Below are positions 2-7,268 of a stretch of 64,000 nt of DNA, one piece after another. Location of the stretch: NCBI GenBank assembly GCA_947449255.1, contig CANFQX010000007.1:1-64000 (forward strand). Direction: 5' to 3'. Origin of the DNA: Pseudobdellovibrionaceae bacterium (GTDB taxonomy: Bacteria > Bdellovibrionota > Bdellovibrionia > Bdellovibrionales > Bdellovibrionaceae). The notes under the pieces were generated by a model that was not told where the DNA came from, did no database searches, and saw nothing but the letters and a program-made list of their open reading frames with translations. The first letter of the stretch is position 1. Each line of letters begins with the position of its first letter. The translations under genes and the position numbers were made by a program.

Positions 2-1012
2 GGCGGCATGGGAATGCCAATGGGCATGATGATGAGTGGTGGCGGAGCTATGGGCATGCCAATGGGAAGCATGATGGGCGGCGGAGCCATGGGAATGCCC
101 ATGGGCGGCGGCATGGGAATGCCAATGGGCATGATGATGAGTGGTGGCGGAGCTATGGGCATGCCAATGGGAAGCATGATGGGCGGCGGAGCCATGGGAA
201 TGCCCATGGGCGGCGGCATGGGAATGCCAATGGGTATGATGATGAGTGGTGGCGGAGCCATGGGCATGCCGATGGGAAGCATGATGGGCGGCGGCGCTAT
301 GGGGATGCCAATGGGCGGAGCCATGGGAATGCCTATGGGCGGCGCTATGGGAATGATGATGGGTGGCGGCGGAGCCATGGGCATGCCAATGGGAAGCATG
401 ATGGGCGGAGCTATGGGAATGCCAATGGGCATGATGATGAGTGGCGGCGGCATGATGGGTATGCCAATGGGAAGCATTATGGGTGGCGGCGCTATGGGAA
501 TGCCAATGGGTGGCATGATGAATGGCGGCGGTATGATGGGAATGCCTATGGGCGGAGCTGCGGGCAGTCTTGGAATGATGCAAATGCAGCAACAAATGAT
601 GCAAGCCCAAATGCAGCAGTACCAGTCTTATATGCAACAGCAACAATCCTACATGCAACAAGAGATGCAACGTCAGCAAGTGGCATCTAGTGTGCAAATG
701 GAAATTTATACTCTTATGTACAAGCTCCAACAAATTCAATCTGGCTACGGCGGCAGTTACCTTGGTGGTGGCGGCGGTCTGGGCATAGGTGGTGGAATTG
801 GAATGGGTGGCGGCTATAATAATGGTGGCTTCAACGGTGGATACAATGGCGGTTACAACGGAGGCTTTAATGGAGGCTACTCCAATGTTCCAATTGGTGG
901 ACTGACCACCGGTGGAACCAATGCAGTAACACCATTGGGTGGTGGATACGGTCCCGGCCCAGTTCCTATCGGTGGTCCAGGCGGAGTAAATCCAATCGGC
1001 ACTGGAAGATAG
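2..1012 (+). CDS. Met/Gly-rich repeat protein, 5' partial
   Basis: Open reading frame enters from the left edge, so the true start lies upstream. The visible 336 codons fall into three blocks. The first, about 190 residues, is built of GMPMG, GMMM and GGGAM motifs arranged in a 35-residue repeat. The second, about residues 190-235, is Met/Gln-rich (MQMQQQ, YMQQ). The third is Gly-rich with GGYNGGYN and GGFNGG motifs, ending in a Pro/Gly tail. No catalytic domain is visible. Such composition is seen in structural, adhesive or metal-binding proteins; the very high Met content would allow copper or silver binding, but that is inference. The N-terminus, and so any signal peptide, is not in the window. 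Confidence 0.8.
   Translation, partial: GGMGMPMGMMMSGGGAMGMPMGSMMGGGAMGMPMGGGMGMPMGMMMSGGGAMGMPMGSMMGGGAMGMPMGGGMGMPMGMMMSGGGAMGMPMGSMMGGGAMGMPMGGAMGMPMGGAMGMMMGGGGAMGMPMGSMMGGAMGMPMGMMMSGGGMMGMPMGSIMGGGAMGMPMGGMMNGGGMMGMPMGGAAGSLGMMQMQQQMMQAQMQQYQSYMQQQQSYMQQEMQRQQVASSVQMEIYTLMYKLQQIQSGYGGSYLGGGGGLGIGGGIGMGGGYNNGGFNGGYNGGYNGGFNGGYSNVPIGGLTTGGTNAVTPLGGGYGPGPVPIGGPGGVNPIGTGR
8..320 (+). repeat. Three near-identical 105-bp tandem repeats
   Basis: Units begin at 8, 113 and 218. Each encodes 35 residues starting MGMPMGMMMS. The first two copies are nearly base-identical; the third diverges at its end (GGA instead of GGG). Shorter degenerate versions continue to about position 560. The near identity at the DNA level suggests recent expansion by slippage or unequal recombination. 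Confidence 0.9.
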
Positions 1013-1028
1013 TTAGCGCATGTCAAAA

Positions 1029-1072
1029 AATGAAGATAAGTATATGTCTCTCGAAATAAACTTATCTTCATT
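1029..1072 (+). terminator. Possible terminator after the repeat protein
   Basis: A 12-bp inverted repeat (AATGAAGATAAG with CTTATCTTCATT) encloses a 20-base loop just after the stop codon at 1012. No strong T-run follows, so termination is plausible rather than clear. Confidence 0.4.
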
Positions 1073-1182
1073 CTGTATTAAATTTTGTGAGCAAAGTTAG
1101 CCTACTCAGGCCTTTTTCTAATGATCTAAACTAGCAATAAAATTGGAACAAGTAGCCTTTGAGAATCAAGGATTTTTAATCT

Positions 1183-2361
1183 CTATTCCAAAACAAACAG
1201 TTCTCGAAAAAGAGTCGTCCAATGAATAAATCGAATATCATCCTGTCTAAATTCTAGAATGTCGCGGCTAATACAGATGGCTTCAGCGTTAGAGAAATCC
1301 ATTGCAAGCTTTTTGAATCCAATAAAACTTTCTTTCACTAATTGTATGTTATCTGAGGACTTGATTTCGAGGAGTAATCTCTTTTGGCCCGGTCGCTCTA
1401 TGACAACATCTATTTCAACATCATTTTTAGTTCTTAAATAAGAAAACTTCCAAGATTTTTTAAAATAGGAATTCAATCGAATGAGCTCTAATATTATAAA
1501 TTGCTCAAACAAATCACCAAATTCAAAGCTTTGTTCTTCTAAAGGAAGTGTCAATCTGTTCTGAAGTGTTCGAGTGATACCGGTGTCAAAATAATAAAAT
1601 TTTGGATTTTTTCGTTGCCTTTCGCGAATAGATTCATGAAAGGGCTGCAGGAGAACTCCAATAAAAGTATCTTCTAAAATCTGAAAATAGTTTTGAACCG
1701 TTGTCGTATCAACACCGATTGTTTTAGCAATATTGCTAAAGTTTATTATCTTTGCATTGCTTTGTGCTGCAACTTCTAAGAAGTGACGAAAAGGCGTCAC
1801 ATTTCTAACAATCTGTTCAGCGATAATTTCTTCTCGTAAGTATGTATCAGCGTAAGCATTTAAAAAATCAATTCGGTCTGAATTTTCAGAAAAAGTAAAT
1901 ATTTTTGGTAAACTTCCCCATCGCAATACATTTTTTAAATCAAAATTTTTTCCAAGTTCAATATGCGTAAAAGGGTAAAGGCTATATATAAAGGCCCTTC
2001 CACCCAATAGGTTGACGCCAAGCTTTTTAAGCTTTCTGGAACTACTTCCTGTTAAAGCAAAAATAAAATGTTTTTTTTCAATTTGAGAATGAACAACGTC
2101 TAACAATTCAGGGATCTTTTGAATTTCATCAATCACAACGACAGCACCAGCAGGTCGTTTTTTTTCTTCTTCTGAAAGCATTTGAGATAAAAGCTCGGGA
2201 TTTAGTGATAACTTTCTATTGAAAGTCGGGTCTAAGAGATCTATCCAAAGATGATTATTTCGTGGAAAAAGAGTCTCCATGTAGGTAGATTTACCTACGC
2301 CTCTATTTCCAAATAAGAAAAAACTATTTGATTTCGATAAGTTACATATTCTATTGATCAT
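1183..2361 (-). CDS. AAA ATPase with DUF4143 C-terminal domain
   Basis: 392 residues from the ATG at 2361 (a TTG two codons upstream is also in frame). The N-terminal P-loop has Walker A GNRGVGKST (about residues 18-26) and Walker B VVVIDEIQKIP (about 74-84). A sensor-like LTGSSSRKLK follows, then LLGGRAFIYSLYPFT, typical of this family. The C-terminal half carries the DUF4143 nuclease-like region with EIDVVIE and LLEIKSSD motifs, resembling a PD-(D/E)xK core. Family length is usual. These ATPases are widespread, often horizontally moved, and their biological role is poorly known. It stands alone, with no operon partner. A second family member lies at 15141-16316. Confidence 0.9.
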   Translation of the reverse strand: MINRICNLSKSNSFFLFGNRGVGKSTYMETLFPRNNHLWIDLLDPTFNRKLSLNPELLSQMLSEEEKKRPAGAVVVIDEIQKIPELLDVVHSQIEKKHFIFALTGSSSRKLKKLGVNLLGGRAFIYSLYPFTHIELGKNFDLKNVLRWGSLPKIFTFSENSDRIDFLNAYADTYLREEIIAEQIVRNVTPFRHFLEVAAQSNAKIINFSNIAKTIGVDTTTVQNYFQILEDTFIGVLLQPFHESIRERQRKNPKFYYFDTGITRTLQNRLTLPLEEQSFEFGDLFEQFIILELIRLNSYFKKSWKFSYLRTKNDVEIDVVIERPGQKRLLLEIKSSDNIQLVKESFIGFKKLAMDFSNAEAICISRDILEFRQDDIRFIHWTTLFRELFVLE

Positions 2362-3252
2362 ACCCAATAATTGTCCGGCATTTATTGGGCTAAGTCAATA
2401 AATGTCTAATCCTTCATCTTTACACCTGAAGCTTTAATAAAAAAAAGCACAACGGACGGGTATATCATAAGCTAGTTTTTTTAAATGCAACAAGTGGAAC
2501 CAAGGATATGGGCACATTAGAAGATCAAGAAATCGTCGGGGGACCCAACGGTATGCAAGGTCCGTAAGCAGTCGCAAAAGGCGTGCCGTATCGAACGCAA
2601 ATCTATTGACTCTGGATATGACATAATTTTGAACATTGAGGGATATGAATTTAGACACAAACAGGATTTAAGCCCAGTATATTTTCTAAGTACCGTAAAT
2701 AGCTTTTACTTTTTGAGGTGTTAGATTGACGCCAGTTGAAATTAAAAAGGTTAAAACACAAATCACTCGATATGAGAGGAATTTTAAACTCCGACGAATT
2801 GATTTTGGCTTCAAAGCTGTTGGGAATCAGAAATTTTCCAGGCGCTTGTTGGAAAACATAAAGCCCTAATTATTCAGTTGGATCAGGAATCTGATTATTT
2901 AAAGCGAACTGAGTCGGTAAATAAACTGAGTGATTTAGCTGAAAGGCCTAAACGGGAATAGTTCAATATTCAAATTAATTTGAAAAGAGTTTGGAATTTT
3001 CTGCCAAGCTTCTGTAATTCTCTGCATGTCAATTTGAGAACTAAGGTCGGAGAATAGAACCATGTTTGCTCTTTTAAAAAGTTTAAGACTAGATCAAATC
3101 TGCCATGATTCTAAATTTTGAGAATTCATTCCACGAAAAAAGAATATCAGTAGCTTAGATCAATTCAACGCGATGATGAGGTTAAATTCAGGTGGCATGA
3201 AGTTTGTAAATCCATATCTTTGAAGCTCACAGCAGCTCAGAAAGGATATGAA
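2362..3252. other. Decayed intergenic stretch without an intact gene
   Basis: About 0.9 kb between the ATPase and the peptide gene. It has several short coding-like fragments broken by stops. One is on the plus strand at about 2560-2720 (containing ILNIEGYEFRHKQDL). One is the frameshifted fragment at 2726-2961. One is on the minus strand from 3063 to 2935 (MVLFSDLSSQIDMQRI), with an upstream in-frame extension to about 3130 broken by a stop. I see no complete gene, RNA gene or clear promoter. It looks like a graveyard of moved-in genes. Confidence 0.5.
2726..2961 (+). pseudogene. Possible frameshifted gene remnant
   Basis: A TTG codon at 2726 preceded by GAGGTG opens a frame reading LTPVEIKKVKTQITRY, which runs about 35 codons and then shifts. 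A different frame continues with coding-like text (LIIQLDQESDYLKRTE) to the TAG at 2959-2961. The two halves are in frames differing by one, which suggests a decayed small gene. The family is not recognised. Confidence 0.25.
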
Positions 3253-3405
3253 ATGGAGAAAAATAATATAAATATTGAAGAAACGTCATACTCAACCCAA
3301 GAACTTCGCACTTCCTCGAATAATATGATGTGCGTAGTTACCTACGAGCCACTTTCGGAAGAAGAACAGAAGGCAGTTGAAGAGATTCTGAAAATTGCAA
3401 ATTAA
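3253..3405 (+). CDS. 50-residue peptide, candidate RiPP precursor
   Basis: Start chosen at the ATG at 3253 because AAAGGA lies six bases upstream; a longer in-frame start at 3220 lacks a comparable site. The peptide is polar and acidic. Residues 1-24 are Asn/Thr/Ser/Glu-rich. The middle has MMCVVTYEP (about 25-33) with the only Cys. The C-terminus is a Glu-rich amphipathic helix (SEEEQKAVEEILKIAN). There is no signal peptide or membrane segment. It sits immediately before an intrinsic terminator and then an operon of two oxygenases, a spermidine-synthase-fold enzyme and an exporter. That is the arrangement of ribosomal peptide natural-product operons. The precursor role is inferred from context only; no known core motif is recognised. 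Confidence 0.6.
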   Translation: MEKNNINIEETSYSTQELRTSSNNMMCVVTYEPLSEEEQKAVEEILKIAN

Positions 3406-3410
3406 TGGCG

Positions 3411-3446
3411 ATGGCCCCTCTTATCTAAAGAGGGGCCATTTTTTTT
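3411..3446 (+). terminator. Strong intrinsic terminator or attenuator
   Basis: Perfect 12-bp stem (ATGGCCCCTCTT with AAGAGGGGCCAT), a 5-base loop and a T7 run. It lies between the 50-residue peptide gene and the GTG start of the next gene at 3460. It would let the peptide be transcribed in excess of the enzymes, by partial read-through. Confidence 0.9.
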
Positions 3447-3459
3447 AAAGGAAATCGTT

Positions 3460-4596
3460 GTGTTTTACAGTCAAACCAAAAAAATTATCAATAAAAATCT
3501 AACCTTCTTAGACACGACGTCAGTATTTACCGGTCAATATTGGGATGAATTCGGCATAACTAGTTTTCTTGTTCCAGATCGAGCTGAGGTCCTAATGTTG
3601 GGCCTCTCTTACGGTGGTGGAGTTAGACCAATATTAAGTTCAAATAAAGAGATAAAATTAACTTGTGTAGACAACGACAAAGTCAGTGTAAAAGCTTGCA
3701 AAGATTTTTATAGAGATGCGTTTCCTGAATTGATTTTTCAAACTGAAGTTGCAGATGCCAAAGAATTTCTTATGAATGATAGTCGCAATTTTGACTGTAT
3801 CTGGCTCGATATTTATGAAGCAACAAAGTACTGCGAGTACTATTTTGACCGGGAGTTTTTTGATTTTCTGAAAGCACGTTTGTCTCCTGGTGGAGTTTTG
3901 TTAGTTAATTCTTATGGTCTACCAAACCAATTCAATCCATTGAGCAGAAATTGTGTTCAAACTGATTTCTATAACTTTCTAAAAGATAATTTTAACCATA
4001 TATCTTCTCTGCCGTATCGTCGAAACATTACCTTTATTGCCTCCAAATCTGAACCTATAATTTATCCCGTGATTCCTCACCCTAGTCTTGCAGCACTAGA
4101 CATGCAGACGCTAAAATTTTTCAAATGTCGACTCGCTCATATTAATTCGGACCCAATAGAAGCCATAAATTCTGATGCTACGTCATCTGTTAATTTCAAG
4201 GATATTGATCAGCAAATGCGTGAACTATGGGTTGAAGTAAGAAATGAAATTGAGTCGCAGGGTTTCAAATGCGATGACAATGCACAAATATTGGATTTAA
4301 TTCAAAATCAAAATAATGCGAGCAATCTTGCAACACAGCTTTTGCATGATCGCCAAGAATTGATCTCGTTTTTACCTATCCTCTGCGCAGGCGAATCCAA
4401 CATTAGAAATGTGGATGTTGACTGGATCTTTGATTGGTTTTGTAAGTATTCTCGGGAGATAAAAGATACTTTTCCTAAATTTTACAATCAAATCTGGTTG
4501 CCACAGCTTTGGGCGATGGTCCTGCAGTCGTCAAAACAATATCGGAAGTTCTATTTTTCAATGCTTGCCCTCATGCAAAAAGAGGAGACTCTATGA
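3460..4596 (+). CDS. Spermidine-synthase-fold (SAM-binding) enzyme with C-terminal extension
   Basis: 378 residues from a GTG with AAAGGA upstream. Residues about 40-200 form a Rossmann-type methyltransferase fold like spermidine synthases: glycine motif MLGLSYGGG, acidic strand-2 end CVDND, then ADAKEFL and the DCIWLDIYE strand, and LSPGGVLLVNSYG. The first block has YGGGVRP where polyamine synthases usually have GGGEG, so a methyl or other SAM-dependent transfer is as likely as aminopropyl transfer. Residues about 205-378 are an unrecognised helical extension. The gene overlaps the next by four bases (ATGA), so it is translationally coupled to the oxygenases. In this context it probably modifies the peptide or a small metabolite; that is inference. 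Confidence 0.7.
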   Translation: MFYSQTKKIINKNLTFLDTTSVFTGQYWDEFGITSFLVPDRAEVLMLGLSYGGGVRPILSSNKEIKLTCVDNDKVSVKACKDFYRDAFPELIFQTEVADAKEFLMNDSRNFDCIWLDIYEATKYCEYYFDREFFDFLKARLSPGGVLLVNSYGLPNQFNPLSRNCVQTDFYNFLKDNFNHISSLPYRRNITFIASKSEPIIYPVIPHPSLAALDMQTLKFFKCRLAHINSDPIEAINSDATSSVNFKDIDQQMRELWVEVRNEIESQGFKCDDNAQILDLIQNQNNASNLATQLLHDRQELISFLPILCAGESNIRNVDVDWIFDWFCKYSREIKDTFPKFYNQIWLPQLWAMVLQSSKQYRKFYFSMLALMQKEETL

Positions 4597-5210
4597 AAAA
4601 TATTATCGTAATTGATGATTTCTATGAAAAGCCTGAGGTCGTGCGCAATCTAGCATTAAAAGCAGATTATCTTGAGTCTGACAAAACTCCCTTGAATTTT
4701 GTCGGTACGGAATCCAAGAAAAGTTTTTATTCTGATAGTTTGATTAAAAAAATTGAGAAATCTATTGGAAAAAATATCGTTGTTGATCCAATAAGATATT
4801 CATTTGGCGTTTTTTCTAAGTCATTTTCTACAGATCAAAAAAATCTTACTGTACATTTAGACGCATGTGAATGGACGGCATTAGTTTACTTGAGTCTTCC
4901 TGAACACTGCCAAGGTGGTACACATTTTTATGTGCATCCTTTGACTGGCACCAGTGCTGTCCCCGAGCTTGAAAAAATTCAAGATTTAGGTTTTTCAACT
5001 AGGGATGATTTTATTGCCAAAACAGTTGTGCCAATTGGTAAGGATCTATCTCAGTGGCAAGAGTCTGTCAGAGTCAAAATGAAATTCAATCGGATGATTA
5101 TTTTTAAGTCCGGAAGTCTTTTTCATGCAGGAAGTGGTTGTTTTGGTTCCGACGATGCAAATTGTCGCCTGACGCAACTCTTCTTTTTTAAAACAGGAGA
5201 AAAAATATGA
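4593..5210 (+). CDS. 2OG-Fe(II)-type oxygenase, DUF6445-like (copy 1)
   Basis: 205 residues from the ATG at 4593 with GAGGAG upstream; longer in-frame starts overlap the previous gene deeply and are rejected. It has the double-stranded beta-helix hallmarks: H88-x-D90 in VHLDACEW, then GGTHFYVH, a distal H178 in SLFHAGSG, and R192 in CRLTQLFFF to bind 2-oxoglutarate. The N-terminus IIVIDDFYEKPEVVRNLAL matches the opening of DUF6445-type proteins. It should be a soluble, iron-dependent hydroxylase or desaturase. The next gene is a paralogue, and all cassette genes overlap or nearly touch. The substrate is unknown; the peptide at 3253 is the obvious candidate. Confidence 0.75.
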   Translation: MKNIIVIDDFYEKPEVVRNLALKADYLESDKTPLNFVGTESKKSFYSDSLIKKIEKSIGKNIVVDPIRYSFGVFSKSFSTDQKNLTVHLDACEWTALVYLSLPEHCQGGTHFYVHPLTGTSAVPELEKIQDLGFSTRDDFIAKTVVPIGKDLSQWQESVRVKMKFNRMIIFKSGSLFHAGSGCFGSDDANCRLTQLFFFKTGEKI

Positions 5211-5809
5211 ACATTATTGTTGTAGATGATTTTTACCAGAATCCTGATGCAGTAAGAGCTCTTGCCCTAAATGCGGATTATAGAGATGTTACAAAGTTAA
5301 ACTATCCTGGTTTTCAGAGTGTAAACAGTTATTCATCAACTAAAATTATTGATAAAATTGCAGGTATCCTTGGTTGCGAGTTAGAAGTTGACTCTGAGAA
5401 GCACACATTCGGAAAATTTAGAATTATGTTGAAGGAGGGCGGTTCTCAGTTGAAGGTTCATCTTGATGGGCATGCAGACTGGACAGGTGTTCTATATTTA
5501 AGTAATCCAAACTCATTCAGCGGAGGTACCGGTTTTTATAGGCACAAAAAGACGGGCCTGGAAGGTCCGGTTAGCCCAGAGAGATTGAAAGATTTTAGTT
5601 ATTCGGATTGGCAACATTTGGAAAAAGATCTCATCGAGAAGGACACTCTAAATCCTGAAGCTTGGGAGGAAACAGCCTTCGTTGGAATGAAATTCAATCG
5701 TTTGGTTCTCTTCCAGGGAAATAAGATTTTTCATTGTCATACCGAATCTTTCGGAACAAATAAAATTGACGGCCGAATGACACAAAATTTTTTCTTTAAT
5801 GAGGCCTAG
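5207..5809 (+). CDS. 2OG-Fe(II)-type oxygenase, DUF6445-like (copy 2)
   Basis: 200 residues, start ATG overlapping the previous stop (ATGA) with AGGAG upstream. It is paralogous to the preceding gene along its whole length: IIVVDDFYQNPDAVRAL at the N-terminus, H85-x-D87 in VHLDGHADW, GGTGFYRHK, MKFNRLVLFQ, distal H176 in IFHCHTESFG, and R190 in GRMTQNFFF. All expected metal and 2-oxoglutarate ligands are present in both copies. Two divergent, intact copies suggest two successive or site-specific oxidations rather than redundancy. Confidence 0.75.
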   Translation: MNIIVVDDFYQNPDAVRALALNADYRDVTKLNYPGFQSVNSYSSTKIIDKIAGILGCELEVDSEKHTFGKFRIMLKEGGSQLKVHLDGHADWTGVLYLSNPNSFSGGTGFYRHKKTGLEGPVSPERLKDFSYSDWQHLEKDLIEKDTLNPEAWEETAFVGMKFNRLVLFQGNKIFHCHTESFGTNKIDGRMTQNFFFNEA

Positions 5810-5810
5810 C

Positions 5811-6980
5811 ATGTTTTCTCAAAAAAATAGAATCTATATCTCTACATTTATAAATACATTAGGCAACTGGCTTACATTCTTAGCTATTGCACTCATTACA
5901 AAAGAAAAATATGGTGCAAGCCAGGTGGCACTGGTTTTTCTTGTGCAGACTCTTCCTGCGATTATCTTCTCACAGAGTCTATCGCGTTTGATTCCAATTG
6001 AAAAAATTGAAAAATACTATTGGGCTATTCAGGTCTTATTGGCAGCATGCAGTCTGTTGATGGTTGCGAGTCAAAGTCTTTTTATGATCTATACGTTTCT
6101 TATTATTACTTCGCTATTGAAATCAATTTCGAATCCACTATTTAATTCTTTGATTGGAAAGTGGATTAATAAAGATGATCAGAAACATGTATTCACTCGG
6201 ATTGGTGCACTTCAAGCTGGAACTTTAGCCCTAGCGCCAGCCATTGGTGCTTTGATCAAAATCATGTTCTCTGCAAATGTTCTCTTTATATTGGACGCTC
6301 TGACTTTCATACTTTCAATTGTTTTTCTGAAAGAGCTGTTCTTGCCAGCGAATGAATCGAACCATGAATCATCGATTAGGGATTGGCGTTCCCTGGTTCG
6401 AGTTGTCTTGCGATTACCTTCAGACACGCCCCTAAATATTCGGGCAGCACTCGTACAGTGGTTTCTATTTTTAGGTGTTGGAGCATTGTTGAATGCCATT
6501 GAATTCTCTGGTTTTGAAAATATAAAAATGACAGAAGGACAGATTGGCTATGCAATGACAGCTTGGGGCATAGGAAATTTAATTGCTTTTGTTTTCAAAA
6601 ATCCATCTTCTTCGCTCATTCCCACTCTTTTCGGTTATGCAGCATCATTGACATTGTTCGTTTTTGCGCCGGCGCCAGTTGCGATCATTTTTGCTTTTTT
6701 AATTGCAGGAGTTTTTTCATCCTATTTGGCAGGATCGCTCTTGGCTGCTATCCAAGGTTCAGTTCCAACTGGATACAATCCATTGCCAGTCTGGGCCTAT
6801 GCAAATCAAATGACTCAGGTAATAAATTTGATCGCCTATGGATCCGCGGGTTGCCTTCTAAATATAATTGGATATCAAACCTTTGGTGGCATCATGGTCG
6901 GTCTTTTAATCTTGATGATATTAAGAAGTTCTAATTTTTCCAAAAATACAATCCATAGGGATTTGGACCTTTATGGATAA
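5811..6980 (+). CDS. MFS transporter, probable exporter of the cassette
   Basis: 389 residues. The start at 5811 is preferred over 5799 because GAGG at 5801-5804 is correctly spaced and the longer start overlaps the upstream stop. The protein is hydrophobic throughout, with many membrane segments and a central break near residues 180-205. The N-terminal FINTLGNWLTFLAIALI resembles MFS_3-type efflux proteins. It is the last gene of the cassette and follows the second oxygenase by one base. The likely job is export of the modified product or self-resistance. Confidence 0.8.
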   Translation: MFSQKNRIYISTFINTLGNWLTFLAIALITKEKYGASQVALVFLVQTLPAIIFSQSLSRLIPIEKIEKYYWAIQVLLAACSLLMVASQSLFMIYTFLIITSLLKSISNPLFNSLIGKWINKDDQKHVFTRIGALQAGTLALAPAIGALIKIMFSANVLFILDALTFILSIVFLKELFLPANESNHESSIRDWRSLVRVVLRLPSDTPLNIRAALVQWFLFLGVGALLNAIEFSGFENIKMTEGQIGYAMTAWGIGNLIAFVFKNPSSSLIPTLFGYAASLTLFVFAPAPVAIIFAFLIAGVFSSYLAGSLLAAIQGSVPTGYNPLPVWAYANQMTQVINLIAYGSAGCLLNIIGYQTFGGIMVGLLILMILRSSNFSKNTIHRDLDLYG

Positions 6981-7006
6981 GCGAAAGACTTAGCTATGAG
7001 GGAGTC

Positions 7007-7028
7007 TGGCCTGTTTCATTCCAGGCCA
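7007..7028 (+). terminator. Hairpin after the exporter gene
   Basis: TGGCCTG and CAGGCCA with an 8-base loop lie 27 bases after the exporter stop. A short T-rich stretch (ATTTTATT) follows about a dozen bases later. It could end the cassette on the plus strand or the tRNA transcript on the minus strand. Confidence 0.4.
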
Positions 7029-7062
7029 CTCGAACGAACATTTTATTGATGAAATTAAGCCA

Positions 7063-7149
7063 TGGTGCGCGAGGGGGGACTTGAACCCCCACAAGATTTC
7101 TCTCACAGGCTTCTGAGACCTGCGTGTCTACCAATTCCACCACCCGCGC
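7063..7149 (-). tRNA. tRNA-Leu (anticodon CAG)
   Basis: Read on the minus strand: acceptor GCGCGGG pairs with the 3' strand before an encoded CCA. The D-arm is GTGGAATTGGTAGACAC. The anticodon stem CAGGT/GCCTG encloses loop CTCAGAA, giving anticodon CAG. A long class II variable arm is present, and the T-arm is GGGGG TTCAAGT CCCCC. The 3' end faces the oxygenase/exporter cassette. Confidence 0.95.
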
Positions 7150-7268
7150 GATAAAATCAGCCTTTATTGTCTGCCTAAAAAAAACAAAGTGAAATGCTTT
7201 TTGCGTAACGTCATTAAAGTTGTCGCTATTGTGCACCTCAGTTGTAGGGTGTTAAGGATAAGTTCCTT

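Follow-up and report, generated by a model that had tools for sequence, protein, structure and literature searches.

A five-gene cassette of Bdellovibrionota as a candidate RiPP-type pathway with paired DUF6445 oxygenases and a spermidine-synthase-fold enzyme

Introduction

What might be made by a row of five bacterial genes in which a short peptide gene precedes a spermidine-synthase-fold enzyme, two paralogous DUF6445 oxygenases and an MFS transporter? The question is raised by contig CANFQX010000007.1 of a Pseudobdellovibrionaceae bacterium (assembly GCA_947449255.1), of which positions 1-64,000 of the forward strand (64,000 nt, the whole stretch referred to here as the window) were analyzed. 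A preliminary description had inferred a RiPP-like pathway and stated that no described class is known to use paired DUF6445-type oxygenases together with a spermidine-synthase-fold enzyme. In the literature that we searched no paper mentions DUF6445 or PF20043, and none links "spermidine synthase-like" to RiPPs. As the function of DUF6445 is undescribed in that literature and RiPP mining tools are keyed to known enzymes, such clusters are easily missed.

Results

Layout of the locus

The following features were assigned in the window.

3241..3246 (+), ribosome-binding-site-like AAAGGA, six bases 5' of the peptide ATG (direct reading)
3253..3405 (+), candidate precursor peptide of 50 aa, MEKNNINIEETSYSTQELRTSSNNMMCVVTYEPLSEEEQKAVEEILKIAN; ATG at 3253, stop codon at 3403-3405
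3410..3446 (+), intrinsic terminator-like hairpin (3410-3440) with T-run, in the interval between precursor and enzymes
3460..4596 (+), spermidine-synthase-fold SAM-type enzyme, GTG start
4593..5210 (+), OxA, DUF6445 oxygenase of the 2OG/Fe(II) type
5207..5809 (+), OxB, DUF6445 oxygenase of the 2OG/Fe(II) type, paralogue of OxA
5811..6980 (+), MFS transporter, presumed exporter of the product
1013..7268 (no strand assigned), insert of about 6.2 kb that bears the cassette
7063-7149 (-), tRNA-Leu(CAG)

All five genes of the cassette lie on the plus strand in the order peptide, SAM-fold gene, OxA, OxB and MFS, with two 4-base overlaps (SAM-fold/OxA and OxA/OxB) and a 1-base gap (OxB/MFS). This co-directional arrangement had been described beforehand, and each of its parts, including the strong terminator after the peptide gene, was recovered from the open reading frames, the raw sequence and Pfam (Spermine_synth, 3.4e-6; DUF6445, 6e-11 for OxA and 1.5e-17 for OxB; MFS_1, 3e-16). 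PADLOC gave only weak generic 2OG matches on the cassette.

Distribution and mobility of the cassette

The SAM-fold gene was detected in seven of 369 genomes of the phylum, that of the window and six other Bdellovibrionota. A search of the order yielded four more full-length copies with 41-47% identity, and a profile run against the 369 genomes added G165 and G283, both more remote, with scores of at least 143 bits compared to 56 for ordinary spermidine synthases. DUF6445 genes were present in 4 of 241 sampled genomes of the phylum and were paired in three of them. When one genome per species was scanned for the cassette pattern (84,980 species), five of the loci already found were returned and no others, all within the phylum of the window; given the strictness of the patterns, cassettes of greater divergence may have escaped the scan.

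The window and G122 share the gene order given above, whereas in G062 and G073 the order is peptide-OxA-OxB-MFS-SAM; homologues of the MFS gene lie within the cassettes of G062, G073, G122 and G283. An all-against-all comparison of neighbouring open reading frames revealed only the cassette genes as common, plus two histidine kinases, and the unrelated flanks indicate that the five genes form a conserved unit. In the window the cassette is flanked by a Gly/Met-rich gene and an amidohydrolase gene that adjoin each other in four genomes of the same genus, implying an insertion of about 6.2 kb into the genome of the window. Neither a DUF6445 gene nor a full-length SAM-fold gene was found in other genomes of this genus. 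Viral contigs yielded no relatives of the SAM-fold enzyme, and 72,556 plasmid records contained no full SAM-fold enzyme and a single DUF6445 gene.

In G139 the SAM-fold gene lies at a contig end, the contig stopping right after it, with a divergent gene on its 5' side and no peptide just upstream; neither peptide nor DUF6445 was found in this assembly, so that either the cassette is broken here or the SAM-fold gene stands alone.

The tRNA mentioned in the preliminary description is real but is incidental to the cassette and irrelevant to the pathway. As a possible mark of integration it has no near-identical partner elsewhere in the genome. Within the 6.2-kb insert, positions 1183-2367 (-) encode an AAA_14/DUF4143 ATPase with strong matches to the PADLOC candidate PDC-S01 models. 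The Gly/Met-rich repeat protein at 8-1012 (+), built of GMPMGMMM units, is the C-terminal part of a conserved gene of the genus, inside which the contig begins. Elsewhere, an AMP-binding ligase gene and a split MFS gene lie directly upstream of the peptide in G165 (L035, 2607-4998), a variant that may install a further group, and G073 alone has a co-directional PhyH-type dioxygenase gene upstream of its peptide (L032, 11412-12161). Contig CALQIT020000065.1 (L038) is titled as a Streptomyces griseus MAG; a genome search placed it in the window's own family, so the title is apparently mislabelled.

The peptide gene is conserved and under purifying selection

Homologues of the peptide are the first cassette gene in G062, G073 and G122 (48-49 aa each) and, in more diverged form, in G165 (51 aa); the four have 40-63% identity to the peptide of the window. 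In G283, an open reading frame beginning MNQIEMPSHSENNMQGPT has a good ribosome site and the expected position and is interrupted by three N of an assembly gap. Five cassettes have a start assembled without interruption, and in each of them the peptide gene comes first. A peptide profile run against the 369 phylum genomes retrieved exactly the five complete copies with 79-99 bits (97 for the window), the next best match scoring 18.9. This profile was built from the same five copies, and the informative part is the score gap and the absence of other matches.

For the closest pair (G062/G073) a dN of 0.13 and a dS of 1.2 were obtained, and in other pairs synonymous sites are near saturation while 20-31% of non-synonymous sites differ. 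The gene is therefore protein-coding and constrained, with purifying selection acting on the peptide. Homologous loci without the short reading frame, or an unconserved frame, would have refuted the earlier proposal; neither was encountered where the cassette start is assembled. With five complete peptides and a truncated one, a conserved short precursor gene beside modifying enzymes, as demanded of a RiPP, is in place.

A conserved leader and a variable core had been anticipated. Instead, the N-terminus is variable, the centre (RTS.NNM.C.VTYEPL) is strongly conserved, the acidic C-terminal helix is conserved as well, and variation returns in the final residues. Among the invariant positions are R, T, S, N, M, C and Q.

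A terminator-like hairpin follows the peptide gene

In all five complete loci a stem with a T-rich tail separates the peptide from the next gene; its position is kept and the sequences are unrelated. In the window the hairpin has a stability of -23.5 kcal/mol, equalled by 2 of 500 dinucleotide shuffles. Over four loci, the window included, 1 to 3 of 500 shuffles were as stable; in G165 the number was 33 of 500, and that hairpin is only weakly better than shuffles. This element had been called an attenuator; hairpin and T-run are indeed present, but a terminator that separates the precursor from the enzymes, as is usual in RiPP operons, is the better reading.

Such a hairpin could also mean that the short reading frame is a regulatory leader or arrest peptide, whose translation controls the following terminator and hence the expression of an operon whose enzymes use a small molecule as substrate. 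The peptide always comes first, whichever gene comes next, the hairpin is present in five of five loci, and in two of them the stem starts 4 bases past the stop codon, all as a regulatory leader would have it. However, across the loci this distance ranges from 4 to about 45 bases (no search for a competing antiterminator was made), and the peptide is conserved in its centre and acidic helix with variable last residues, not the usual pattern of arrest peptides. The enzyme operon would also be left without an obvious substrate. We regard a regulatory leader as quite unlikely, a minor rival that sequence alone cannot exclude.

The SAM-type enzyme lacks the polyamine signature

An AF2 model of the SAM-fold enzyme (pLDDT 77) was aligned by VIA-align with spermidine synthase 2pt9 over 201 residues (Z 16.5, rmsd 3.4; residues 24-238), and the same structural list contains the RiPP methyltransferase LahSb (Z 14.1). 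With spermidine and thermospermine synthases (SpeE) the enzyme thus shares a Rossmann-type fold and the first Asp of the catalytic DxxDP motif. In contrast to solved spermidine synthases, the family has lost the second Asp of this motif and the acidic residue of GGG(D/E)G, carries an extra all-helical C-terminal region (about residues 240-378, barely tested), and is encoded beside a conserved peptide. The NCBIfam speE model is matched with 7.7e-10 and 38 bits, compared to an equivalog cut-off of 249, and so the enzyme fails both the cut-off and the acidic residues required of a polyamine aminopropyltransferase. Judged from the loss of the two acidic signature residues, synthesis of polyamines by this enzyme is unlikely.

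The speE match, far below cut-off as it is, is what could be cited for an ordinary polyamine or housekeeping operon preceded by a chance short reading frame. We give this possibility practically no credit: besides the missing signature residues, the short reading frame is conserved and under selection, and the cassette is rare. The chance-frame reading is already contradicted.

Both oxygenases have complete catalytic sets, and the OxB model has a prolyl-hydroxylase-type fold

OxA and OxB fulfil the criteria for DUF6445 (PF20043), scoring 43 and 65 bits against a gathering threshold of 24, with an HxD...H iron triad and a distal Arg. The preliminary description had noted complete HxD, H and R sets in the two paralogues, and these residues (H85, D87, H176 and R190 in OxB numbering) are the same in each of the ten oxygenases aligned. 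The OxA/OxB tree is compatible with one old duplication, without firm support.

Foldseek matches of the OxB model (AF2, pLDDT 88) are 2OG/Fe(II) oxygenases. By VIA-align the model resembles OGFOD1 (Z 13.6, rmsd 2.7, 159 aligned), and further neighbours are a Trichoplax prolyl hydroxylase, PiuC, a Pseudomonas P4H and PHD2 (Z 11.7-13.6 for the group of OGFOD1, P4H, PHD2 and PiuC). The model thus matches a prolyl-hydroxylase-type 2OG/Fe fold, and such similarity is no proof of function. Several of these neighbours use peptide or protein substrates. A sequence search of the PDB with the oxygenase profile gave nothing real, and the cassette enzymes differ from prolyl hydroxylases and PiuC in that two paralogues are encoded together next to a peptide.

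The OxB model also resembles enzymes for free amino acids, such as BesD/HalA, and small molecules are the usual cargo of MFS exporters. Together with the amphipathic character of the acidic C-terminal helix, clearest in G000 and G165, this leaves room for the short protein to be an unconsumed small partner or carrier, the enzymes making an exported small molecule (a modified amino acid or a metallophore). However, the most conserved part of the peptide is not the helix but RTS.NNM.C.V, with its reactive Cys, Met and Asn, and a terminator after the peptide gene suits a precursor that is needed in excess. A partner or carrier role is in our view rather unlikely.

DUF6445 in other genetic contexts

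The sole plasmid-borne DUF6445 gene, from Piscinibacter (L056, 2116-10192; NZ_CP136338.1), lies between TfuA and GNAT genes and is preceded by genes for a carbamoyltransferase-YcaO fusion, an MNIO of the MbnB/TglH/ChrH family and a 57-aa reading frame ending LSNKARQKPW. This neighbourhood places DUF6445 in at least one other RiPP-type cluster, the protein being a very distant family member. The std cluster of Streptomyces thermodiastaticus encodes an MFS permease, and its SNKEWQE core is modified by YcaO-TfuA, an MNIO and a NodU-like enzyme (PMC13174530). The Piscinibacter cluster looks like a relative of it with an added oxygenase.

Cyanophage proteins of phrog_1644 (e.g. NC_006883.2, 249021-249665) are DUF6445-like (E 2e-30), so that the family is not specific to RiPPs. 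The PHROG name "minor coat protein" was rejected for the oxygenases; the phage proteins are of the DUF6445-like 2OG kind and the name looks wrong.

Discussion

These data are best explained by a RiPP-type pathway whose five genes move horizontally as one cassette, a reading that we think is probably right; no chemistry has been shown. The inference of the preliminary description gains support from the observed conservation and selection of the peptide, the hairpin in five of five loci, the constant gene content and the distant DUF6445 gene in a YcaO/TfuA/MNIO cluster, and the chemistry remains inferred. Counting against the RiPP reading, neither a modified or cleaved peptide nor a product has been observed, no conserved protease is encoded in any cassette, and cyanophages contain DUF6445 relatives; the Piscinibacter member is distant, no peptide was found in the broken locus of G139 and the G165 hairpin is weak. 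No PqqD-like Pfam or NCBIfam match indicating an RRE was found in the cassette proteins (no separate model was made of the helical region at the C-terminus of the SAM-fold enzyme), an RRE being absent from some RiPP classes.

In the proposed route, the peptide of about 50 residues would be made in excess, the intrinsic terminator letting only part of transcription through to the enzymes. The spermidine-synthase-fold enzyme may then alkylate the peptide using SAM, transferring a methyl or amino-carboxypropyl group in place of the aminopropyl used for making polyamines. Both DUF6445 enzymes, whose catalytic residues (and, in the OxB model, fold) are those of 2OG/Fe(II) oxygenases, are predicted to hydroxylate two positions in the conserved centre, with the two adjacent Asn or the Pro within RTS.NNM.C.VTYEPL as best candidates (N23, N24 and P33 of the peptide). 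Modifications by both kinds of enzyme would be expected in the RTSSNNMMCVVTYEPL block. The acidic C-terminal helix might be a recognition or follower segment, and a putative protease encoded elsewhere would release a fragment for presumed export by the MFS protein. The product is most likely a chemically modified peptide, made by an undescribed route and not yet isolated.

Single-product RiPPs such as PQQ have few genes and a short precursor conserved in a central block and not only in a leader, and in these respects the cassette is similar; unlike them, it has no radical SAM enzyme and no recognised PqqD-type RRE. With the std cluster it shares a short precursor, an iron oxygenation enzyme and an MFS permease, and with the Piscinibacter cluster the DUF6445 gene. 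However, no YcaO, TfuA, MbnB/TglH/ChrH (MNIO, DUF692) protein or carbamoyltransferase is encoded, so that the criteria of the YcaO/TfuA or MNIO classes are not met, and the precursors are unlike. We incline to view the cassette as a separate RiPP class, characterized by a precursor with an NNM.C centre and an acidic C-terminal helix, a non-polyamine spermidine-synthase-fold SAM enzyme, a DUF6445 pair and a mobile cassette in Bdellovibrionota.

The cassette is small and directly testable, and its peptide is a named, proposed substrate of two DUF6445 enzymes as well as of a spermidine-synthase-fold protein without the polyamine signature, so that the chemistry of both enzyme kinds can be tested at once on one peptide. 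To our knowledge, few natural-product pathways are known from predatory-type bacteria, and the cassette, if our reading is true, would add one.
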